Source: an uncultured Oscillospiraceae bacterium (GTDB taxonomy: Bacteria; Bacillota; Clostridia; Oscillospirales; Oscillospiraceae). Taken from it: a stretch of DNA of 37,333 nucleotides. This document shows, piece after piece, positions 10,380 through 37,174 of this stretch. Location: assembly GCA_947626785.1 (NCBI GenBank), contig CANQTO010000023.1, positions 1 through 37,333 on the forward strand, read 5' to 3'. Numbering within the stretch: position 1 is the first letter of the stretch; each line of letters opens with the position of its first letter. The notes beneath the pieces were generated by a model, which did no database searches, had not been told where the DNA came from, and saw only the letters and a program-made list of their open reading frames with translations. Both the position numbers and the translations under genes were made by a program.

Positions 10380-11900
10380 TCAGTAACCCTTCTTCAGACT
10401 ATCCTCTATGAGAGCGGCCCTGACGGTCTTCCCGCTCTCGTTGCGGGGGATGGTATCCACAAACTCAAAGGATTTTGGCATTTTGTAAGGCGGGAGATAG
10501 TTGAGGGAGAACCGGATCAGCTCCTTGTCGCTGACCGCTTCGGAGGCCTCGATGATGGCGTGGATCCGGTGGCCCCACTCCTCGTCGGGCAGGCCCACCA
10601 CCACGGCGTCAGACACCTTCCGGTGCTTCTTCAGGACCTCTTCCACCTCGGCGGCAAAGACGTTTTCCCCGCCGGTGACGATCATGTCGCTGCGCCGGTC
10701 GGCAAAGTACAGATAGCCCTCCCCGTCCAGCCAGCCCATGTCCCCCACGCTGCGGAAGCCCTTTTCGTCCACAGGCAGGGGGGGCACGTTCTTATAGGTC
10801 ACCTGGGGGCCGTTTTCGCCCCAGCTCATGAAGATCTCCCCGATCTCGCCCGGGGGCAGGTCCCTGCCCTCCTCGTCCCGGATGACGGCGCTGCCGGAGA
10901 GCATCCGGCCTACGCTGCCCGGATGGCGGAGCCAGTCGTCGCCCCGGATCCAGGTCATACCCACGCACTCGGTCATGGCGTAGATCTCGTAGACCCGCTC
11001 CGGAGGCATCAGCTCCAGCCAACGGAGCTTCAGCTCCCGGGAGCAGATCCCTCCGGTGTGGCAAAAGGCCTTCAGGCTGGCGAGCTTCTCCTGGGAGAAG
11101 TCCGGCAGGCGCAGGATGCGCTCCATCAGCGTCGGCACCATCTGGACGTACTCGATCCGGTACTTCTCGATGAGCTCCAGGATTGTCTCCGCCTTGAGGC
11201 TGGCGGGCATCACCAGGGTGTTGCCCGCGTACAGCCCATTGAAGGCCGCCGAGTGGGGCGCGCCGTGGAACAGGGGGCCGGCCAGCAGCTGCCGCATCTC
11301 AAAGCTCATGCCCGTCATCTTAAACCAGGCTTCCATCCCCTCGTCGCTCTCTCCGGCGGGCATGTTCTGCTCTATCACCTTGGTCTTTCCGGTGGTGCCG
11401 CCGGAGCAGTTGGCCAGGTTGGGGATCGCCGGCACGTCCGGCGGGGCCTCCTCAGAGAAGCCCCGGCAGAGCTCCTTGAGCTCCCCGGTACCGATGCTCT
11501 CGTATCCCTCCGGCTTGATCCGGTTGGTCACCACCAGCGCCGGGGCGATGCACTCGCAGATCTCCGCCATATTGCGCTTGGGGCTCCGGTTGGAGACGGG
11601 GACATAGCAGGCCCCCGTCTTCCAAATGCCGAATGCCAGAGCCACATGGGTCGGGGTATTGGGCAGCGCCGCGATGACGCTTGTCCCCTTCCCGATCCCA
11701 CGGGACAGCAGAAACCAGGCTATCTGGTTGGAGAAGCTCTCCAACTCGCGCCAGGTCGTGATACTCTCTCCGCCTTCCTGCGATATGTAGATGATCGCTG
11801 GGGCGTCCGGCTTCACCCGGGCGATGTTCGCCAACTGCTTTCCGGCAGTAAAGCGGCTCTCCGTATCCCGGTTGAAGATGTTGAAATGCTTGACAGCCAT
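10380..11900 (-). CDS. Acyl-CoA ligase (AMP-forming), BaiB-like
   Basis: 506 aa, ANL superfamily. It activates a carboxylic acid through an acyl-adenylate to the CoA thioester. Motifs in order: ATP-binding loop NCSGGTTGKTKVIEQ (A3), GPLFHGAPHSAAFNGLYAGN, YAMTECVGMTWIRGDDW (A5), FRSVGDMGWLDGEGYLYFAD with RRSDMIVTGGENVFAAEVE (A7/A8 hinge), and the C-terminal NESGKTVR with the adenylation Lys (A10). The HGAPHSAAFNGL block and the SVGDxG/ADRRSDM block agree strongly with my memory of BaiB, bile acid-CoA ligase. The start is supported by an upstream AGAGG. It is the second gene of the operon. Other carboxylic substrates cannot be excluded. Confidence 0.85.
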   Translation of the reverse strand: MAVKHFNIFNRDTESRFTAGKQLANIARVKPDAPAIIYISQEGGESITTWRELESFSNQIAWFLLSRGIGKGTSVIAALPNTPTHVALAFGIWKTGACYVPVSNRSPKRNMAEICECIAPALVVTNRIKPEGYESIGTGELKELCRGFSEEAPPDVPAIPNLANCSGGTTGKTKVIEQNMPAGESDEGMEAWFKMTGMSFEMRQLLAGPLFHGAPHSAAFNGLYAGNTLVMPASLKAETILELIEKYRIEYVQMVPTLMERILRLPDFSQEKLASLKAFCHTGGICSRELKLRWLELMPPERVYEIYAMTECVGMTWIRGDDWLRHPGSVGRMLSGSAVIRDEEGRDLPPGEIGEIFMSWGENGPQVTYKNVPPLPVDEKGFRSVGDMGWLDGEGYLYFADRRSDMIVTGGENVFAAEVEEVLKKHRKVSDAVVVGLPDEEWGHRIHAIIEASEAVSDKELIRFSLNYLPPYKMPKSFEFVDTIPRNESGKTVRAALIEDSLKKGY

Positions 11901-26913: not shown

Positions 26914-29105
26914 GCAGTCCCCCTTGTGGGGGACGACTGCAGAGCTCCATGCCCAGGTCAGCCAGTGCCTATTTCAACCCACACCCCCTTGCGGGGGCGA
27001 CCTGATATTCAGCTTCGTTTGATTACTTGCGTATTATTTCAACCCACGCCCCCGCATGGGGGCGCTGCCTGAGTTTGCCGGCAACACCACGACCCGTGTG
27101 GGATTTCAATCCACACCCCCCGCGCGGGGGGCGACGCAACTGGACCAAGTACGCCCGGGACTTCGACCAATTTCAATCCACGCCCCGCGTGCAGGGGCGG
27201 CACGAACTTCGCAAATGTCAACAACAACGGGAACGCATTTCAACCCGCGCCCCCGTGTGGGGGCGACTACCGCCGTTGCAACGTCCATTTCGACATAGGT
27301 ATTTCAATCCACACCCCCGCGTGGGGCGACGCGATGCCGGTCGCGTTTTTGGCTTTCTCAAGATAGTTTCAACCCACGCCTCCGTGCGAGGCAACGGGGC
27401 CGTGTAGAGCAGCGTCTCGGCCTTGACCCAATTTCAATCCACGCCTCCACGCTGGGGGCGACTCCAATGGCGGTACGGCCATGCCCCTCACTGACGAATT
27501 TCAACCCACACCCCCGATCGGCCAGCCTGTGATTGGCAGGGACGGATTTCAACCCACGTCCTCCTCGCGGGGGGCGACCTCTGACCTGATAGGCGACAAT
27601 GTTTCCATCAAGTGATTTCAACCCGCGCCCCTCGCGAGGGGGCGGCCAAAAGCGCCGGGAGCTGGAGAAAGACGAACCGGAATTTCAACCCACGCCCCCG
27701 CGCTGGGGGCGACTGTCCGCAAGATGGAGCGGGAGAACGCGGCCCTATTTCAACCCGCGCCCCCCTGCGGGGGACGACATGTATTCTCGTCTAGCTTATA
27801 GCCCTTGGGGGCCTTATTTCAACCCACGCCCTCCATACGGAGGGCGACCCTATTTTTGCGGGCGACCGCCGCACCATACGGCAATTTCAATCCACGCCCC
27901 TACGCGACGGCGACCGTGCTGGAGTCCAGCAAATATGCTCAAATCCTGATTTCAATCCACGCCCCCACGCTGGGGGTGACCTGCGTTCCTATACTTGGCG
28001 ATACAGAGCAGCGTATTTCAACCCATGCCCCTCGTGAGGGGCGACACCACGGGATGGAGCCCCCTGGTCTTTTAGTCCCATTTCAACCCGCGCCCCCCGC
28101 ATGGGGGTGACGTTAATAATCGAGTTCTGTTTTCTCCTCAAAAGCAATTTCAACCCGCGCCTCCGCGGGGGGCGACCATGATTTCCCTCCAAATCCCGAC
28201 CCTGAATTAATTTCAACCTACGCCCCCTCGCGGGGGGCGACTGTGACGCCGTCTATCTGCAAATATGCGTTTGCAATTTCAACCCACGCCCCCCGCGCGG
28301 GGGGCGACATGGTCCGGCCACACGTCCCGCCCATCATCCCGATTTCAACCCACGCCCCCCGCGCGGGGGGCGACGTCCGGCCTTCGCAATGATGGCAAAA
28401 ATTTTCGATATTTCAACCCGCGCCCCCGCGCGGGGGGCGACCGCCGGAAGGCGTGGGTATGTCGGAGCTGCTGGAATTTCAACCCGCGCCCCCGCGCGGG
28501 GGGCGACGACAGGTCCAGGCCGATATAACACGGCTTCCCCCTATTTCAACCCGCGCCCCCGCGCGGGGGGCGACAATCACGGGCTTTTTTCCAGTCCGCC
28601 GACACATAATTTCAACCCGCGCCCCCGCGCGGGGGGCGACACCGAAACCGCACAACTATCCGCAAGGCGATCTTATTTCAACCCGCGCCCCCGCGCGGGG
28701 GGCGACCCGTTTTTGGTCACCCGCTGCTCGATGGCGTCAATTTCAACCCGCGCCCCCGCGCGGGGGGCGACCTTTTTTTGTTACCCTTTAGGCAAGGAGG
28801 ACAAAGATTTCAACCCGCGCCCCCGCGCGGGGGGCGACTCATGTGATCCTCCTCCCCGCCCTCGTACACGTCCAATTTCAACCCGCGCCCCCGCGCGGGG
28901 GGCGACGCTTGTCAAATCCAAACATGGCCGCATAGCACACATTTCAACCCGCGCCCCCGCGCGGGGGGCGACGAGCCAGGTATCTGAGTGATAGAGCACG
29001 AGGATATGATTTCAACCCGCGCCCCCGCGCGGGGGGCGACCAATATCAAGGGCAAGCCCACCAACAGCGAGTTATTTCAACCCGCGCCCCCGCGCGGGGG
29101 GCGAC
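26906..29105 (-). CRISPR. Type I-C CRISPR array, 33 clear repeats plus one decayed terminal repeat
   Basis: Transcribed on the minus strand from a leader at 29106-29279. The first repeat is 29074-29105 and the last clear one 26971-27001; a decayed copy ends at 26937, with a normal 33-base spacer after it. On the plus strand repeats begin ATTTCAAYCC and end GCGAC, around a GC stem. The 11 leader-proximal repeats (28410-29105) are identical, 32 nt. Two 33-nt repeats follow (28276-28308, 28342-28374). The 20 older ones differ from each other. Spacers are 33-37 nt and all different; the unit starting 27498 is about 18 nt short. The form (GTCGC...TTGAAAT on the transcribed strand) fits the type I-C cas genes beside it. 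The small ORFs within are repeat translations, not genes. Confidence 0.98.
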
Positions 29106-29123
29106 GGCAAACCTGCCCAAAAT

Positions 29124-29279: not shown

Positions 29280-29570
29280 CTATACCATCAGTACGCCCTC
29301 CGGCTCATAGGACGCTTTCACGCCAAAGTGTTCGATCTTGTTTTGATACTTGTTCCCTATCTGATAAAACCGCAGGCTGTCCCTCTCCGGGTCGATGGCC
29401 GCCAGCAGTTGGGCCTGGAGCTGTTTGTACTGCGCCGGGTCCAGCAGACATTCGAACACAGAATTCTGTACCCGCTGGCCGTAATTGACGCACTGCTTCG
29501 CCACCCGCCGCAGCCGTCTCCGCCCGGCGGCATCCTCTGTATTCACGTCATAGGTGATCAGCACCAGCAT
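29280..29570 (-). CDS. cas2: CRISPR-associated endonuclease Cas2
   Basis: 96 aa, ferredoxin-like fold. Begins MLVLITYDVNTEDAAGRRRL, with the conserved Asp after the first strand, then GQRVQNSVFECLLD and a C-terminal strand pair. Cas2 bridges two Cas1 dimers in the spacer-integration complex. It starts nine bases after the cas1 stop, is last in the cas operon, and is next to the leader. Confidence 0.96.
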   Translation of the reverse strand: MLVLITYDVNTEDAAGRRRLRRVAKQCVNYGQRVQNSVFECLLDPAQYKQLQAQLLAAIDPERDSLRFYQIGNKYQNKIEHFGVKASYEPEGVLMV

Positions 29571-29579
29571 AAGCTCGCC

Positions 29580-30611
29580 TCACTTCCACAAAAAGGGTGG
29601 ATAACCCTCCAGATCGCCCCGGAGGACCCGGGCCAGCAGCAGAGACTGGACATAGGGCACCAGTCCCCAGGCCAATTTTTCCTTTAAATAGGGGTGGGTG
29701 ATGGGCTCTGCCAGCCGCTTTTGCCAGGCAGAAAGGAAGAGCTTCCGCCCCTCCTCCGTGAGCCATACCGCCCCGCTTGGCTGCCGGTCAAAATGCTCGG
29801 GCCGTATCACCCGGTTGTTGATAAGAGTGAGCACGAACCGGTCGGCAAACAGGGGCCTCAGCTCTTCCATCAGATCCAGCGCCAGGGAGACCCGCCCCGG
29901 CCGGTCCCGGTGGAGAAAGCCCACATAGGCATCCAGCCCCACGCTCTCCAGCGCCCCGGCGCAGGCGTTGGCCAGCAGCGTATAGGCGAAGGACAGCAGA
30001 GCGTTCACCGGGTCCAGGGGCGGGCGGCGGGAGCGGCCGGTGAAAGCGAAGGTCTCCCGCTGATTCAGGATCAGCGCGTCGAAGGCGTCAAAATAGACGG
30101 CCGCCGTTTGGCCTTCCAGCCCTCGGAGGGACTCAGGGTCGGTTTCCTCCAGAAAGGCGGGCAGGCTGTCCGCCAGCAGAGAGGAAGCCCGGCCCAGCTT
30201 CTCATCGTCCACACGCATAGCGTGGTCCCGCCGGGTGCGCTCGATGCTCCACCGGCTGTTGTATACCTTACCGAAGAGGAAGTTTCGGGCAACAATGCAG
30301 CTCTGGGCCTCATCGTCGGCCACGCGGTACTGGGTCCGGCGCAGCAGGACGTTGCCCGGATTTTCCCCGCAGACTCTTGCCAAAAACCGGCCCTTGGGGG
30401 TCAGGAAGCACAGATTGATCCCCTCCTGGGCGCACTTGCCCATGAGGGCGGGACTGGCCCCCTTATAAGAGAAGCAGAGGATATTCTCCAGGGTGTGGAG
30501 GGGGAACTGGCCCCGCTTCTTCTCTCCGGCCAGCACGATCACCGTCTCCCCCTCCAGGGCCAGGTAGCTGTCCTCGCTGAGGACAAACAGCGTGTTCAGA
30601 AACTTCCTCAC
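29580..30611 (-). CDS. cas1: CRISPR-associated integrase Cas1 (type I-C)
   Basis: 343 aa from a GTG at 30609-30611 that overlaps the cas4 stop (GTGA); earlier in-frame starts lie within cas4. The N-terminus MRKFLNTLFVLSEDSYLALE is typical of I-C Cas1. The metal ligands are visible as Glu in LRGLEGQTAAVYF, His in GFLHRDRPGR and Asp in ALDLMEELRP. It integrates new spacers at the leader end together with Cas2 and, in this subtype, Cas4. The gene is intact. Confidence 0.96.
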   Translation of the reverse strand: MRKFLNTLFVLSEDSYLALEGETVIVLAGEKKRGQFPLHTLENILCFSYKGASPALMGKCAQEGINLCFLTPKGRFLARVCGENPGNVLLRRTQYRVADDEAQSCIVARNFLFGKVYNSRWSIERTRRDHAMRVDDEKLGRASSLLADSLPAFLEETDPESLRGLEGQTAAVYFDAFDALILNQRETFAFTGRSRRPPLDPVNALLSFAYTLLANACAGALESVGLDAYVGFLHRDRPGRVSLALDLMEELRPLFADRFVLTLINNRVIRPEHFDRQPSGAVWLTEEGRKLFLSAWQKRLAEPITHPYLKEKLAWGLVPYVQSLLLARVLRGDLEGYPPFLWK

Positions 30612-31282
30612 GGCGCACCCTCCTCTCCCGGCAGATGGGCCCGAAGATAGGCAGCCGGAGACGGACATTTTGCCAGCCGGGGCAGGCACAGATCATTCAG
30701 GGAGCAGGCGGAGCAGCTCTTACCTGACTTTACCTTAGGCGTGTAGCCTCTGGCATAGAGGGAGCGCATCTCCGCCAGCAGTGCCTCCGCCCGTTCCCGG
30801 AGGGCTGCATCCAGCGCCACTCTTGCGCGCCGCCTGGGCTCGCCATAGAACAGGCTGCCCTCCGGTATGTCGCACAGCAGCATCTCCTCCAGGCACATAG
30901 CCTGGACGCAGAGCTGGAGTTCGTCGGCGTCAAAGGGCTTGGGTTTGCCGCGCTTATATTCCACGGGATAGGGGCACCATCTCCCCTCCCGCCCTGCCAG
31001 AGTCACCCCCGAAGGGTCCCGGCGGAATTCCACCACATCGCATACTCCCTGGACCTGAAGTCGATGGGACACGACCCGAAGGCCGCGGACGGTCAGCGTA
31101 TCGCCGCGGCTCTCGATCTGGGTCTCGTCGTGGGCCCGCCGGTGGAGCAGGTCCCCCTCCACCGTGCGCACATTCTCCGCCCACTGCCGCTCGATGTGGA
31201 TCAGGGCCCACTGGCGGCGGCAAAAGGCGAAATGCTGGAGGCCGGAAAGGGCCAGGTACTCGTCCTCCGGAAAGCCGGTCAC
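30608..31282 (-). CDS. cas4: CRISPR-associated exonuclease Cas4
   Basis: 224 aa. RecB-like nuclease with an iron-sulfur cluster: first Cys in HFAFCRRQWAL, a C-terminal triplet CSACSLNDLCLPRL, and nuclease residues in LLHRRAH, GVCDVVEF and YPVEYKRGKP. Cas4 trims pre-spacers and checks the PAM before integration in I-C systems. Its ATG overlaps the cas7 stop (ATGA), and its end overlaps the cas1 GTG. Confidence 0.95.
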   Translation of the reverse strand: MTGFPEDEYLALSGLQHFAFCRRQWALIHIERQWAENVRTVEGDLLHRRAHDETQIESRGDTLTVRGLRVVSHRLQVQGVCDVVEFRRDPSGVTLAGREGRWCPYPVEYKRGKPKPFDADELQLCVQAMCLEEMLLCDIPEGSLFYGEPRRRARVALDAALRERAEALLAEMRSLYARGYTPKVKSGKSCSACSLNDLCLPRLAKCPSPAAYLRAHLPGEEGAP

Positions 31283-32169
31283 CCCATACGCGTGCAGGTG
31301 ACGCCGGCGGGGAGCGCGGCTTCGTTTACGGCGACGCTGTAGTCGCTGTAGGAACGGGGGCTGATAACACCCTCCTTCCGGGCAACGCTGACCGTATCGA
31401 AGAGCTTCCAGGCGGGGGCGCAGCCCAGCTCGGAGTTGTGCTTGAAGACGATCAGCTCCCGGACGGCCATCTTGCCCCGGGCGGCAGAGCGGTCGTTCTC
31501 GAACATATTCAGGATGGCCTGCCAGAGCAGCTCCAGGTCGCTCTCAGAGAAGCCGGTGACCTTCCGGGCCAGATTGGCGGAGACGTAGCCCTCGCAGCGG
31601 TAGAGCGCGTAGGGGACGATGTACTTGCGGCCCATCTCGGTGCCCTTTTTCTCCGCGTCGGCCTCGGTGGTGATGGCCACCCGGGTAATGGTGACCTCCT
31701 GGGGAACGATGGGGTCGACGCTCCGGGCAAAGCCCAGCTGCACCGGTCCGCGGATCTGGCCGCAGTTGAGATTGTTCTTCACAAAGGTGGTCATAACGGC
31801 CCCGAAGGCGCGGATATCGAAGAAGTTCTGGCACATGAAGTCCCGGACCTTCTCATCCAGCTTGTCGTCCCTCTTTTTTGCCTCCTTGACGGTCTTCTCG
31901 TCGATGTCCCAGTGGGCAAAGGCCTCGGCGTCAGAGCGGTTCAGAGGCACGCCGTCCTTGATGTAAATGCGGTAGCCGGGCTCGTCCTCCTTGGCGGTCT
32001 CCACGAAGTTCCGGATCTTCCGCTTCAGGCACACATCGGTGACAAGGCCGTAGCCGGTCTCCGGGTCCATCCGGGGCATGTTGCCCGCGTCCGGGTCCCC
32101 GTTGGGGTTGCCGTTCTCCACGTCGAACAGGAGCACGAATTCATAGCGGTTTTTGATAGGGTCAGACAT
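31279..32169 (-). CDS. cas7: CRISPR-associated protein Cas7c (Csd2)
   Basis: 296 aa from the ATG at 32167-32169 (AGGAGGAAAAGAAA upstream); longer readings on this frame run back into cas8c. Typical start NRYEFVLLFDVENGNPNGDP, then GLVTDVCLKRKIRNFV, NLNCGQIRGPVQLGFARSVD and ITRVAITTEA. Several copies form the backbone of Cascade along the crRNA. It overlaps cas8c by eight bases and cas4 by four. Confidence 0.96.
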   Translation of the reverse strand: MSDPIKNRYEFVLLFDVENGNPNGDPDAGNMPRMDPETGYGLVTDVCLKRKIRNFVETAKEDEPGYRIYIKDGVPLNRSDAEAFAHWDIDEKTVKEAKKRDDKLDEKVRDFMCQNFFDIRAFGAVMTTFVKNNLNCGQIRGPVQLGFARSVDPIVPQEVTITRVAITTEADAEKKGTEMGRKYIVPYALYRCEGYVSANLARKVTGFSESDLELLWQAILNMFENDRSAARGKMAVRELIVFKHNSELGCAPAWKLFDTVSVARKEGVISPRSYSDYSVAVNEAALPAGVTCTRMG

Positions 32170-33928
32170 TTTCTTTTCCTCCTTTATCTTTCTTCTCAAA
32201 GAATTTCTGTACCTGATGGTAGTAACCCAGATGGAAAGTCCCCTGGTCGGCCAGAGACAGCCGGGCGGGCAGGGGTTCCCGGATACGGCTCTCCAGATCG
32301 CCGATGAGCTTCTCATAGTAGACCCGCAGGCCCCCGTCCAGCTTGCGCAGATGGCTCTGGGACAGCTTAGTCAGCAGAGGGAAGATGGTGGCGGGGGTAG
32401 AGCAGGCGCTGTTGAAATACTTATCCTTGATGGTGGCGTTGAGGCCGGGGTTGGCGGCGGACTGGATGCGCTCCAGCACGGCGAACAGCCGGCCCAGCAC
32501 ATAGGGCAGATGGTTGCACTGGTCGTTAAGTTCCACTTGTAAGACCTCCTCCGGAAGTTCATATTCTCTGTTTTTCAGGAAAAACGCTTTCAAAATGGCC
32601 GCCCGGCCGTAGGTGACGTTCTGTTCGGCCCGGATGCGCAGCATAGTCTGCTCCAGCAGGGAGACCGGGTAAGACCCGTTGGACAGGATGGCCCGCGTGA
32701 CCGCTCCGGCCATAGCCGGGGACGCCTTTTTGTCCCTGCTGTTGGGATTGACCGTCTCTTTCAGCAGCCACCACAGAGGCAGGGCTCCGTTTGCTACATA
32801 GCCGGGCTTCACAATGTTCAGCCTGTCATAATGGGCCTGCACATTGGCGAGCATTTGGCCAAAGCTGCTCTGCAAGAAAAAGCGCACGCTCAGCCGGGCG
32901 GCGTTGGGGGCCAGCCCCAGCACATAGAACCGGTTGCCCGGGCGGAGCGGGATACCGCTCACATCCACCGGGTCGCCGTGGGCCAAGGCCCTTACAGCTC
33001 TTTGCAGATCCGTGTCGGTGATGAGCTCCGATGTGCCGCCGAACATGGCGCAGGAAAACAGGTCCTGGCACAGTGGCTCGGCATCCTCCGCCCAGTAGAC
33101 CACGGCGGTGTCGCCGATATCCTGAAGGTGCTTCCGGTCGGCGATGAGCCGGTTCAGCGCCGCTCCGTATTTGAAGGCGGCCTCCTCGGAGACCGGGGAG
33201 TTGAGCCCCTGGCCGGTGCCGTCAGCCTGTTCGTGGCCGTAGGATTCAAAAGCGGAGGCATTGAAGGAAACGAGAGATGCTCCGCTGGACTGAGCGCCCT
33301 GGACGCCCTTGATGGCGGGGTGCAGACGGGCGATAGGTGCCTGCTTGCCGGTGACCAGGCACAGACCGGCGGACGCGCCGGCGGAGTTGGCGGCGCGGTA
33401 GTCCTCCCATGCGGCGCGGACGGCGGGGTCGTTCTGGGCATACAGCCCCTTCACGGAGAAGATCAGATTGGCGCCCTTCAGCATCTCCTCCAGGCAGCGG
33501 TGCAAGGCCGGATGCTCCGCAGCCTGTTCCGGCTGCCAGCTTTCAAAGAAAGCACACACCGCCCGGGCAGCAGGGCTGTCTACCGGGCCCAGAAGCTTCT
33601 GATGCAGCTCTCTGGCCGCCTCGAAGCAAGTTCTCGTCCGGGCGGGTTTTCCCTTGTTGTCTATGCCAAGAATATAGGAACAATTGTCACATAGGAAGTT
33701 TGCACAGACATTAACGGCCCGTTTCTGCTGTTCTGGCACCGGCAGAGACTGGGGCACTTCTTTTTTGCCCCCCTCCGGCATGATCTTCAGCGGTATGACG
33801 CCGAGGAGGCTCCCCTGCTCGTCGATGTCCAGAGCAAAGGACACCTTGGCAAGGCTCCAGCCGGGGGGCGTGATGTCTCCCCGCCGGGCCAGGGCGTCGT
33901 AGTAATCGCAAAGCGCCTGTAAGATCAT
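32162..33928 (-). CDS. cas8c: CRISPR-associated protein Cas8c (Csd1)
   Basis: 588 aa, the normal length for this large subunit, which defines subtype I-C. It begins MILQALCDYYDALARRGDIT and contains CDNCSYILGIDNKGKPARTR and GNRFYVLGLAPNAARLSVRF, characteristic of Csd1. In I-C it recognises the PAM; an internal start can yield the small Cas11c subunit from its 3' part, which is known of the family and not tested here. Its ATG overlaps the cas5c stop (ATGA). Confidence 0.96.
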   Translation of the reverse strand: MILQALCDYYDALARRGDITPPGWSLAKVSFALDIDEQGSLLGVIPLKIMPEGGKKEVPQSLPVPEQQKRAVNVCANFLCDNCSYILGIDNKGKPARTRTCFEAARELHQKLLGPVDSPAARAVCAFFESWQPEQAAEHPALHRCLEEMLKGANLIFSVKGLYAQNDPAVRAAWEDYRAANSAGASAGLCLVTGKQAPIARLHPAIKGVQGAQSSGASLVSFNASAFESYGHEQADGTGQGLNSPVSEEAAFKYGAALNRLIADRKHLQDIGDTAVVYWAEDAEPLCQDLFSCAMFGGTSELITDTDLQRAVRALAHGDPVDVSGIPLRPGNRFYVLGLAPNAARLSVRFFLQSSFGQMLANVQAHYDRLNIVKPGYVANGALPLWWLLKETVNPNSRDKKASPAMAGAVTRAILSNGSYPVSLLEQTMLRIRAEQNVTYGRAAILKAFFLKNREYELPEEVLQVELNDQCNHLPYVLGRLFAVLERIQSAANPGLNATIKDKYFNSACSTPATIFPLLTKLSQSHLRKLDGGLRVYYEKLIGDLESRIREPLPARLSLADQGTFHLGYYHQVQKFFEKKDKGGKENV

Positions 33929-34578
33929 CGCAGCACCTCCTTCCCCGCCACCTCCAGCACGCCGTTTGTCAGCTCCGCCATAAAGAACGTGGGCCGGATG
34001 TCACGGGAATTGGAGTAGTCCATGTCGTAGAGCATCAGCCCCAGGGGCCGGCTCTCCGGGACGGTGGGAACCGGTCCCCCCTGCCAGGCCCGGAAGGAGG
34101 CCGGGAACTCCCGGCAGCCGAAATAGGGCTGGTGGTAGCACTGGCCCCGGGCCAGCCGTCGCCGGGCGATGTCGATAAACTTGCCCTCGTTGTCCGTTGC
34201 ATTGGCCTTGCCGGTCAAGGTAAAATGCGCGTCGATCACATACCGCACATCGGTCAGCACCATGGAGGCCCGCTGCTGGATGCTCTCGCCGGTGTAGAGT
34301 GCCAGAGGCTTGTCCCCTCCGGTCATGACCGAGCGCACATTGGAGGCCAGGATCTTGTCCTTGACCTCATTTCGCCGGATGTTGGTGAAGGCGATGGGGT
34401 TCATCACATGGATGCGGTCGATGTGCCAGCGCATCCCCGGGTGCCAATAGATCGCCTCGATCAGTCCCCGGGCAGCCGACGGCGTCATCACGTCGTAGCT
34501 GACGCGCTCTACCTTCAGCTCGGGCCTTGTAAAGAGGGCATAGGCTCCCCACACCTCCACCTGGATCCCTTGGCTCAT
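33925..34578 (-). CDS. cas5: CRISPR-associated protein Cas5c (Cas5d), crRNA endonuclease
   Basis: 217 aa. RAMP-fold protein that in type I-C replaces Cas6: it cuts the repeat RNA at the base of the hairpin and stays bound to the 5' handle. Visible: VEVWGAYALFTRPELKVERV, SYDVMTPSAARGLIEAIYWH and RRRLARGQCYHQPYFGCREF. It is first in the cas5c-cas2 operon, with GAGGTGG before the ATG, about 150 bases after the predicted promoter. The orphan repeat upstream should be a substrate. Confidence 0.96.
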   Translation of the reverse strand: MSQGIQVEVWGAYALFTRPELKVERVSYDVMTPSAARGLIEAIYWHPGMRWHIDRIHVMNPIAFTNIRRNEVKDKILASNVRSVMTGGDKPLALYTGESIQQRASMVLTDVRYVIDAHFTLTGKANATDNEGKFIDIARRRLARGQCYHQPYFGCREFPASFRAWQGGPVPTVPESRPLGLMLYDMDYSNSRDIRPTFFMAELTNGVLEVAGKEVLR

Positions 34579-34696: not shown

Positions 34697-34723
34697 TTCT
34701 GAAAAATGGTATTAATGAGTAAA
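34697..34723 (-). promoter_or_regulatory. Putative target site of the crRNA-like guide (PAM TTC + partial protospacer)
   Basis: On the plus strand TTC (34697-34699) precedes TGAAAAATGG (34700-34709), which equals guide positions 1-10 except position 6. With a one-base gap, TATTAATGAGTA (34710-34721) also matches. The site lies just after the predicted start of the cas5c operon transcript, where bound Cascade would block transcription. Confidence 0.65.
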
Positions 34724-34734
34724 GCCTCAAAGAC

Positions 34735-34763
34735 AGACTAATAGAAAAAGACAAATTTGTCAA
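34735..34763 (-). promoter_or_regulatory. Probable promoter of cas5c-cas8c-cas7c-cas4-cas1-cas2
   Basis: On the minus strand a perfect TTGACA (34758-34763), 17 bases, and TAGTCT (34735-34740, a weak -10 of three to four matches). The start would be near 34727. Confidence 0.55.
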
Positions 34764-34783
34764 GCCTTTTTTTGGGAAAGAGC

Positions 34784-34810
34784 TTGCTTTTTTCCTGATA
34801 TGGGTATATT
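34784..34810 (+). promoter_or_regulatory. Probable promoter of the crRNA-like RNA
   Basis: TTGCTT (34784-34789), 15 bases, and TATATT (34805-34810) in an A+T-rich stretch. The predicted start near 34817 lies three or four bases before the orphan repeat. Confidence 0.5.
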
Positions 34811-34817
34811 TAATATT

Positions 34818-34920
34818 ATAGTCACACCCTGCATGGGGGTGCGTGGATTGAAATTGAAACATGGGTATTAATGAGTAGGGTCGCAGGGCAGATGCTAGGG
34901 CATCTGCCCTGCGACTGTTT
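34818..34920 (+). ncRNA. crRNA-like RNA with orphan type I-C repeat, guide and hairpin (CreA/CreR-like)
   Basis: 34821-34854 is one I-C repeat: starts GTCAC, stem CACCC/GGGTG, ends TGGATTGAAAT, the same 5' handle as the older array repeats. It is on the strand opposite to the array and the cas genes, about 5.7 kb from the array. 34855-34879 is a 25-base guide-like segment (TGAAACATGG, then G, then TATTAATGAGTA). 34880-34915 is a perfect 15-bp stem (GTCGCAGGGCAGATG) with a 6-nt loop, followed by TGTTTATATG, in place of a second repeat. A promoter-like sequence lies just before. I infer an RNA cut and carried by Cas5c/Cascade that represses the cas5c operon. Transcription is not shown by sequence alone; a relic repeat is the alternative. 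Confidence 0.65.
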
Positions 34921-37081
34921 ATATGAAGAATCCCACGCCTTCATCGGCCTTCAGGGCCAACCCTGTGCTCTCACTGTACAGGGACAGATCGGTCAGCACC
35001 GCCAGATCCTCCTCCAGGACCTCCAACGCCCCCCGTCTCCTGAGCTCGTTGAAATGGGGCTCGTAGATGTTCACAGAAAACTGCCCGGCCTTCCGGAGCA
35101 GAGCGCGGCTGCGCTCGCCGCCGCGCAGGCGGTCCGCCAGAGCTTTGGCCTCCTCCGTGTAGGGGATGAGCACGGCGCGGGTGTTCTGGTCGATGAGATG
35201 GAATTTTTCGGCCGCTTGAGCAAAAGGAAAAGAAGGCTGGCGCATATCCTGTACCCCATCCTCAAACAGAGGGACGATGCGTTTACTGTCGATGGCCTCC
35301 CCGGTGAACTGGCGCAGGGCGGTGAAATAACTCTCGATGGTCTCCGGCGCGTCCAGGGCTGGGCAGTCCCGGGTGACGGAGCGCATGACGTCCATGGGCC
35401 GTTCCAGGCTGTGGGGCAGAGTGGCTGTATAGGCGTCGTCCGGCTGGAAGATATAGACTCGGCTGTCGTCTGCCGGGCGCCTCCCCTCCCGGTTGCACCG
35501 CCCGGCGGCCTGGACCAGGGAGTCCAGCCCCGCCTCGGCCCGGTAGACGGTGGGAAAATCCACGTCCACGCCGGCCTCGATCAGGCTGGTGGACACCACC
35601 CGGCAGGGCTGGCCCGCTTTCAGCCGCCTTTTCACAGTCTCCAAGATCGCCCGCCGGCTCTCCGGCGGCATGAGGGTGGACAGGTGGAAGCTGCCCTCTC
35701 CGTCCAGCAGGCTGTAGACCGCCTGGGCCTGTTTGCGTGTGGACACGATGCACAGGACCTGTTCATGGGAGCCCAGCCGTTGGGCCAGCTCTTTGTCGCT
35801 GAGCTGCCCCAGCTGCTCATAGCGCACCCGCCGGAAGACCTGAGCGGGGATCTGGGGCGCGATCTCTCTGGGGTTCAGGTCCGGGGAGACGGTCTGGAAC
35901 AGCGGAGCCAGTGCGGGCTGGGTGGCCGTGCAGAGGACGCAGGTCGCCCCATAGTTCACAGTCAGCTCCGCGATGGCCCGTACACAGGGCTGCAGATAGG
36001 GCAAGGGGATCGTCTGGGCCTCGTCAAAGATAATGACGCTGCCGGCCAGATTGTGGAGCTTTCTGCACCTGGACGGCTTGTTCGCGAACAGGGACTCAAA
36101 AAACTGCACGGCGGTGGTCACCACCACCGGCAGGTCCCAGTTTTCGGCGGCCAGCTTTTTGCGCTCCTTCGCCGGGTCCCGGGGGCCGGTCTCATCTTCT
36201 CCAAAGTCCACGTTGGCGTGGTGCTCCAGCACTGCGTCCTCGCCCAAAAACTTGCGGAAAGTGTCCGCCGTCTGTTCGATGATGCTGGTGTAGGGGATGA
36301 CGTAAACGATACGCTTCTTTCCGTAGGCCAGAGCGTGACGCAAAGCGAAAGTCAGGGAGGAGATCGTCTTGCCCCCGCCGGTGGGGACCGTCAGGGTGAA
36401 CAGGCCGGGAGCTTGCTCCTCCCCCGCCTTCAGGCAGGCGCGCCGGATATCGGACCGGACCCGGTCCAGCTCATTTTTCGGATCGTTCCAGCAGGCTGTG
36501 GAGGCTTCCAGGCGGGCGAACAGCTGCTCCATGGTGCAGTCGCTGCCCCGGGGCGGGGGCGAGGTACGCATGAAGGCCTCGGTGTCCAGATAGTCCGCGT
36601 CCACCAGGCAGGAGTACAGCATCCGGATCCAGAAAGCCATGGTAAAGCCGCCGCTGCCCAGGATCTTTGGCAGCCGGAACAGCACGCGCTCCAGTTGAAT
36701 ATCCTTGGAGAAATCCGCGTAGGGTTCTACCGGCCGCTTGAGCCGCCCGCAGAGGGTGGGGTCCGAGGCGGCGTCCGTTTTTCCCCCGCCGTCCGGCAGG
36801 CCTCCGTGGTGTCCGGCCACGCAGTAGGCGGCGGGCCAGCCCAAGTATTTGAAGATCTCCTGGGCTCCGGCGGTGGAGTGATCCGTTTGGATGCTTTCTC
36901 CCAGGATCCGTCGCTGGAACGCCGCGGAATATTTCCCGATATCGTGGGCCAGGCCCAGCTGCCGTCCCAACTCCTCCGCCCCAAAGGGAGCGGCGAAAGC
37001 GGCGCAGAGCGCGGCCACATTTTGGGCATGCTCAGGGGCGCTTTGCGTCCGGCCGTCTTCGGCCCTATGCGCGAGAACCAT
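34919..37081 (-). CDS. cas3: CRISPR-associated helicase/nuclease Cas3
   Basis: 720 aa from the ATG at 37079-37081, with GAGGAGGGAAAAGAG upstream and the promoter at 37146-37174; an ATG 31 codons earlier overlaps that promoter. N-terminal HD nuclease with LGLAHDIGKYSAAFQRR and a following TDHSTAGAQ and AGHHGGLPDG. SF2 helicase with VPTGGGKTISSL (motif I), VIIFDEAQTIP (motif II), STSLIEAGVDVDFPTVYR and QAAGRCNREGR (motif VI), and a C-terminal domain. It unwinds and degrades DNA bound by Cascade. All motifs are intact. It is read separately from the rest of the cas genes. Confidence 0.96.
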   Translation of the reverse strand: MVLAHRAEDGRTQSAPEHAQNVAALCAAFAAPFGAEELGRQLGLAHDIGKYSAAFQRRILGESIQTDHSTAGAQEIFKYLGWPAAYCVAGHHGGLPDGGGKTDAASDPTLCGRLKRPVEPYADFSKDIQLERVLFRLPKILGSGGFTMAFWIRMLYSCLVDADYLDTEAFMRTSPPPRGSDCTMEQLFARLEASTACWNDPKNELDRVRSDIRRACLKAGEEQAPGLFTLTVPTGGGKTISSLTFALRHALAYGKKRIVYVIPYTSIIEQTADTFRKFLGEDAVLEHHANVDFGEDETGPRDPAKERKKLAAENWDLPVVVTTAVQFFESLFANKPSRCRKLHNLAGSVIIFDEAQTIPLPYLQPCVRAIAELTVNYGATCVLCTATQPALAPLFQTVSPDLNPREIAPQIPAQVFRRVRYEQLGQLSDKELAQRLGSHEQVLCIVSTRKQAQAVYSLLDGEGSFHLSTLMPPESRRAILETVKRRLKAGQPCRVVSTSLIEAGVDVDFPTVYRAEAGLDSLVQAAGRCNREGRRPADDSRVYIFQPDDAYTATLPHSLERPMDVMRSVTRDCPALDAPETIESYFTALRQFTGEAIDSKRIVPLFEDGVQDMRQPSFPFAQAAEKFHLIDQNTRAVLIPYTEEAKALADRLRGGERSRALLRKAGQFSVNIYEPHFNELRRRGALEVLEEDLAVLTDLSLYSESTGLALKADEGVGFFI

Positions 37082-37145
37082 CTCTTTTCCCTCCTCAAAA
37101 ATGGATGCTGCCTTTCGTCTCTCAAAAACGTCTCCATTTGTCCAT

Positions 37146-37174
37146 ATTATAATCCTTCCGCTTCTGCTTGTCAC
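37146..37174 (-). promoter_or_regulatory. Promoter of cas3
   Basis: On the minus strand GTGACA (37169-37174), 17 bases, and a perfect TATAAT (37146-37151), about 65 bases before the ATG. Confidence 0.8.

Follow-up and report, generated by a model that had tools for sequence, protein, structure and literature searches.

A candidate CreR-like autorepressor RNA in the type I-C cas locus of an uncultured Oscillospiraceae bacterium and in related loci

RNA-guided repression of own cas genes is known from tracr-L of type II-A (cited in PMC10651486), which differs from the element described here in belonging to a Cas9 system and in having the long tracrRNA form. In 2023 Shmakov et al. reportedly surveyed isolated repeats in the vicinity of cas genes whose guides have partial complementarity to cas promoters, and the crRNA-like elements of that survey are said to be mostly two-repeat mini-arrays. 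In the literature searched, no guide-based autorepression of cas genes was found for type I-C; an earlier I-C prediction in the survey of Shmakov et al. 2023 is possible. The closest described systems are outlined below. CreR is a crRNA-like RNA which is partly complementary to its own cas promoter and autorepresses via the Cas effector (PMC13131331, PMC12737573); it is reported for types I-B, I-E and V-A (PMC13131331), its repression is released when crRNAs or anti-CRISPRs draw Cascade away (PMC12737573), and it is called a mini-CRISPR RNA in a form having two repeats (PMC12948488). The one-repeat CreA of Haloarcula hispanica, from a type I-B CreTA system, is composed of a degenerate repeat, a guide and a terminator, and experiments on type I-B CreA gave a TTC PAM with pairing needed at guide positions 1–5 and 7–11 and not at 6 and 12 (PMC8501985). 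In type I-B this one-repeat form was present at lower levels and had a weaker effect than its two-repeat counterpart (PMC8501985). RacrIC1, an inhibitor carried by a phage, consists of a solitary I-C repeat that is read as RNA, and the excerpted text describes no guide to a cas promoter for it (PMC10651486).

Here we report an element comparable to these in a contig of 37,333 nt of an uncultured Oscillospiraceae bacterium (the whole stretch is called the window), whose minus strand encodes a complete type I-C locus, namely cas3, cas5c, cas8c, cas7c, cas4, cas1 and cas2 along with the CRISPR array (Table 1). The gap of 340 nt between cas3 and cas5c contains a solitary degenerate I-C repeat on the plus strand, opposite in direction to the cas genes, having a predicted 6-bp stem (34825–34830 pairing with 34836–34841) and an 11-nt handle, TGGATTGAAAT. 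An earlier note on this DNA had pointed out such a repeat with its stem and handle, and both the sequence and the predicted fold bear this out; its lengths of 25 nt for the following segment and 15 bp for the hairpin had to be corrected to a guide of 24 nt and a hairpin of 17 pairs. The predicted fold of an RNA from 34819 to 34926 has a z-score of −6.0, and the search of Rfam gave no match inside 34697–34920 even at E ≤ 1. The candidate promoter of the crRNA-like RNA would start the transcript inside or just before the repeat; one such promoter was found against 0.6 expected in shuffles, and in relatives the best promoter of the element mostly starts near the repeat. In the region 27027–28000 the translations of open reading frames repeat the array motif and a match occurs at 27168–27196, thus copies of the array seem to go on below the counted ones.

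Table 1. Features of the type I-C locus and of the solitary repeat element in the window
Feature	Position	Strand	Remark
CRISPR array, copies counted	28015..29120	-	repeat GTCGCCCCCCGCGCGGGGGCGCGGGTTGAAAT; may extend to lower coordinates
cas4, cas1, cas2	29280..31282	-	
cas7c	31279..32316	-	TIGR02589
cas8c	32162..33928	-	TIGR01863
cas5c	33925..34578	-	TIGR01876, E = 2e-46; predicted processing enzyme and Cascade subunit
PAM of the site	34697..34699	+	TTC
Site (protospacer) matched by guide	34700..34721	+	lacks one base relative to the guide past position 10
Predicted promoter of cas5c operon	34735..34763	-	script prediction; TTGACA (-35, 34763-34758), 17-nt spacer, TAGTCT (-10, 34740-34735)
Candidate promoter of crRNA-like RNA	34795..34822	+	weak; CTGATA, 16 nt, TATAGT
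Solitary degenerate type I-C repeat	34821..34854	+	last 11 nt (34844-34854) = crRNA 5′ handle
Guide	34855..34878	+	24 nt, TGAAACATGGGTATTAATGAGTAG
Hairpin in place of second repeat	34879..34916	+	17 pairs, short T-rich tail, terminator-like
cas3	34919..37174	-	TIGR01587 and TIGR01596; upstream of element

The guide, TGAAACATGGGTATTAATGAGTA, was aligned with the site, TTC followed by TGAAAAATGGTATTAATGAGTA, and the two are identical over positions 1–10 save position 6 and then over 12 bases after an offset of one base, which agrees with the earlier note in respect of the ten matching bases with their single exception, the adjoining TTC and the shifted continuation. TTC is a PAM of type I-C (PMC8406640). 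The PAM-plus-seed TTCTGAAANATGG has a single occurrence in the whole 2.75-Mb genome and the reversed control pattern has none; other genomic targets of this guide were considered and rejected, none being found at the PAM-plus-seed level. The cas5c operon is predicted to start at about 34728, which places the site at about +8 to +29 of that start, just past it as had been proposed from the letters of the window; the start is predicted by script, promoter calls of this kind are consensus guesses, and the cas5c promoter is not among the calls of a stricter scan because of its weak −10 box (three of six consensus bases).

For comparison Cas5c (TIGR01876) was searched in 400 genomes of the same family and found in 88. 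The complete set of 253 type I-C loci, in which some genomes enter twice, was assembled from 92 family loci and the window (93 together), 80 named loci, and the first 80 of the 100 phylum-sample matches listed. In the first scan, which covered up to 900 nt upstream of cas5c, a handle-like repeat was found in 26 of the 93 loci, and in all but one (L120) it lies opposite to the cas strand. Sites were scored over 14 guide positions, with positions 6 and 12 left out. Of the 26 orphan repeats situated on the minus strand upstream of cas5c, 24 have a TTN-flanked site with a score of at least 11/14; the two that lack one are the repeat of L062 and the first of L111. Shuffled guides reached 11/14 in 4 of 520 trials and never exceeded it, so that a chance match is excluded. 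When guides were swapped between loci, 20 of 648 combinations scored at least 12/14, all of them inside groups of loci with similar guides, and arbitrary 24-mers taken from the same regions, which were not screened for overlap with guide or site, did so in 6 of 1409 cases. A detector with the cut-off at 12/14 was positive near cas5c in 24 of the 93 family loci and in none of 347 coding windows or 455 shuffled regions; owing to its indel, the window itself scores 11 and so escapes this threshold. Of the 80 named loci 31 were positive, including those of Eubacterium barkeri VPI 5359, Blautia sp. MSJ-19, Lachnoclostridium sp. An196, Hydrogenoanaerobacterium saccharovorans An564, Parablautia sp. 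Marseille-Q6255, a Selenomonas ruminantium MAG and Enteroscipio rubneri (Actinomycetota). From the phylum sample 8 of 80 loci matched and four were kept, those set aside being L272, whose match lies inside an array, and L303, L308 and L309, with matches that are weak, out of place or carried by a repeat.

The pairing between guide and site was profiled in a further collection of 64 non-redundant sets of repeat, guide and site drawn from the 253 loci, for which the first 16 positions were scored equally with a cut-off of 12/16 and guides sharing their first 20 bases were counted once. After curation 57 sets remained. The rows set aside from this collection were two of L309, those of L303 and L308 and the second of L131, and the plus-strand elements of L152 and L248 were left out of the 57 only since the promoter script assumes the minus orientation.

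Positions 1–5 are matched in 55, 57, 56, 57 and 57 of these pairs and positions 7–11 in 55, 56, 55, 55 and 56, that is in 96–100%, while positions 6 and 12 have 18 and 10 matches, which is the chance level. Matching goes on at positions 13–17 (49, 55, 52, 47 and 39 pairs, 68–96%) and stops there, each of the positions 18–34 having 9 to 17 matches, close to what base composition predicts. Rates at positions 1–16 are raised by the cut-off, all to the same degree, and position 17 onward is unscored, so the dips at 6 and 12 are no artefact of the scoring; a fall of matching to below chance beyond position 17 was sought in the 57 pairs and not clearly seen. The third base of the PAM is C in 48 pairs, T in 8 and A in 1, the leading TT being required by the detector.

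The guides differ among loci, and every guide fits the cas promoter of its own locus. Differences between guides were followed in 71 pairs of related elements, which overlap so that the counts are not independent events. At pairing positions such a difference goes with a matching site in both members in 305 instances and fails to do so in 54, and at positions 6 and 12 the corresponding counts are 6 and 97. For example, L091 and L098 have guides that disagree at positions 1 and 5, and the two sites show the same changes. The earlier note had asked whether guide seed and target co-vary in related loci, and they do; its further statement that a mismatch at position 6 is tolerated fits the near-chance matching of this position. 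This pattern would be expected if selection acts on an RNA–DNA hybrid bound by Cascade in which every sixth base is unpaired. Flipping of every sixth base takes place in type I-C. The excerpted text of the I-C structure paper PMC7684278 has no mention of it. The 57 co-varying pairs may be read as a natural mutagenesis which has kept positions 1–5, 7–11 and 13–17, has ignored 6 and 12 and ends its matching at 17, and they provide a testable position rule for binding without cutting.

The anatomy of the element is shared among the relatives as well. In 16 loci the handle is identical to that of the array repeat of its own locus at a mean of 10.5 of 11 positions, and the stem part shows 33% identity in ungapped comparison. 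A perfect stem of at least 4 bp abutting the handle is present in 43 of 58 elements against 17.5% of shuffles. In 59 of 65 cases the guide is followed by a strong hairpin, one exceeding the 95th percentile of 650 random windows, and the median guide before the hairpin is 24 nt; no strong hairpin was found in L199, the locus of the cultured Eubacterium barkeri VPI 5359.

The element occurs near cas5c in 22 of the 24 loci whose cas3–cas5c gap is at least 200 nt (the window counted as present). Among the 62 loci with a shorter gap a single one has it there, as do 2 of the 7 whose gap is unknown. A scan of all 1,474,620 bases of the 93 family loci, in which matches less than 200 nt from a detected array were dropped, gave seven more matches, all at 2.36–2.68 kb upstream of cas5c, and tblastn with the Cas3 of the window (25 loci) located cas3 between element and cas5c in all seven. 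By these placements the element stands either before cas5c or before cas3, in agreement with the place of the operon promoter; where cas3 and cas5c are closely spaced, the element, where found, is upstream of cas3. In L152 (Enteroscipio rubneri) and L248 the element, which is upstream of cas3, runs co-directionally with the cas genes and its site is on the opposite strand. The sites fall into two classes relative to the predicted start: of 58 sites, 29 lie at −65 to −45 (near −48) and 27 at −15 to +35, and random placement puts 5.4 on average and never more than 14 of the 58 into the −65 to −45 class. The strand of the site is that of the repeat in 17 of 29 sites of this class and in 26 of 27 of the −15 to +35 class, and either position would be expected to hinder RNA polymerase once the complex is bound. 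In L039 and L068 the site is more than 200 nt from the called promoter, perhaps through a wrong promoter call.

On the tree of Cas5c the presence of the element is patchy (67 of 250 rows) and it is missing from most of the loci examined; the tree was built by a quick method, with long branches flagged, and its well-supported branches force at least 15 gains or losses. Some of the absences may be misses of the detector or cut contigs. L128, which is close in Cas5c, has no repeat within 700 nt of cas5c. A repeat-like sequence with one mismatch in the handle lies 220–270 nt upstream of cas5c in L133 and L134, followed by a hairpin in L133, and the fetched loci of both contain no matching site at 12/14.

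Most likely the element is a type I-C autorepressor of the CreR kind, as the earlier note had proposed; the support comes from comparison of sequences, in particular from the covariation of guide and site. The element shares with CreR a repeat hairpin and handle of the cognate subtype, a guide partly complementary to a PAM-flanked site at its own cas promoter and pairing shorter than interference needs. It differs from the described CreR in belonging to type I-C, with Cas5c as predicted processor, and in having one repeat with a hairpin in place of the two-repeat form; it is doubtful that two repeats are essential to the definition, because CreA occurs in both forms. The Haloarcula CreA is alike in its TTC, its pairing at 1–5 and 7–11 and its general build, but it silences a toxin RNA, whereas the site in the window lies at the promoter of the cas operon and no toxin gene is seen.

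By the proposed mechanism the lone repeat would be transcribed together with guide and terminator hairpin, and Cas5c would cut the RNA at the base of the repeat hairpin; Cas5 processes the I-C crRNA (PMC10013973, PMC10651486). Cascade would then take up the processed RNA and be guided by it to the TTC-flanked site at its own operon promoter, where the bound complex would stop transcription; because the guide does not reach the length of an array spacer, this Cascade may be a shortened one. With about the first 17 of the usual ~34 positions paired, Cascade may bind without the full R-loop that calls Cas3, and with the R-loop incomplete self-cutting would be avoided; the end of pairing at 17 would thus be what prevents cutting in type I-C. 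Ordinary crRNAs compete for the same complex and anti-CRISPRs put it out of action, so more Cascade would be supplied through the loop when crRNAs are many or Cascade is inhibited. In the window cas3 would fall outside the loop. If the loop works in this manner, I-C immunity senses its own crRNA load and attack by anti-CRISPRs, which bears on the phage resistance of gut bacteria and on the use of type I-C as an editing tool.

Other explanations were weighed against the same data. The repeat of the window is degenerate as compared with the array and its guide–site pair carries an indel, as might be seen in a relic of a decayed array, devoid of present function, whose last spacer came by chance from its own cas promoter. 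Such a relic would drift, whereas guide and site co-vary, and unrelated guides in independent loci share the place, the TTC, the freedom at positions 6 and 12 and the stop at 17, which makes this account very improbable. The same indel leaves some real chance, small as it is, that the module is functional in general and that the copy in the window has been inactivated by a one-base deletion in the site, for only 9 pairs are in register before the offset and the relatives L105 and L111 pair in register. Against such an inactivation, all 12 of 12 bases after the offset are matched, and at one of them guide and site share a T in place of the G shared by those of L105; the missing base would lie beside position 12, which need not pair.

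The RNA may alternatively belong to an addiction module of the CreTA or CrePA type and act there as antitoxin, its guide silencing a toxin and having no part in the tuning of cas genes, and the DUF3990 gene and its partner which stand between guided promoter and cas5c in L172, L183, L184 and L185 would suit that idea. In the window, however, the cas3–cas5c gap has no open reading frame of at least 80 aa confined to it (a very short toxin RNA gene is possible) and the site precedes cas5c, so that the addiction module is quite improbable here. A decoy of the Racr type, in which a solitary repeat from a phage occupies the Cas proteins, has its precedent in RacrIC1, a solitary I-C repeat which inhibits I-C immunity (PMC10651486); the present element is situated inside host cas loci, in the window between cas3 and cas5c, has a guide matched to a site, is found in many bacteria, had no match in 50,697 phage records, and its guide pattern had none in viral contigs, so a decoy can hardly be entertained.

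Two further arrangements were observed among the relatives. In L111, at about 10580–10690, two repeats separated by a spacer of ~34 nt precede the guide, and it looks as if a new spacer had been taken up at the regulatory repeat. In L172, L183, L184 and L185 the two genes between the guided promoter and cas5c lie ~1.1 kb upstream of cas5c; one encodes DUF3990 (PF13151, E about 1e-50 in all four) and its partner has ~150 aa, and in L172 and L183, the two tested, the genes match PDC-M10A and PDC-M10B, a candidate defence pair of PADLOC. Should the guide act as a repressor in these loci too, a second defence would be under the control of Cascade. As a tentative scheme, with somewhat less than an even chance of being right as a whole, a one-repeat I-C module at the operon promoter would rewire guide and site together, some Lachnospiraceae would have captured DUF3990 and its partner behind the guided promoter, Cascade would restrain both itself and this back-up weapon with an anti-CRISPR freeing the two, and the 24-nt guide with its hairpin would give a shortened Cascade which binds without completing interference. 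Short open reading frames that look like remains of the DUF3990 pair are present in L189.
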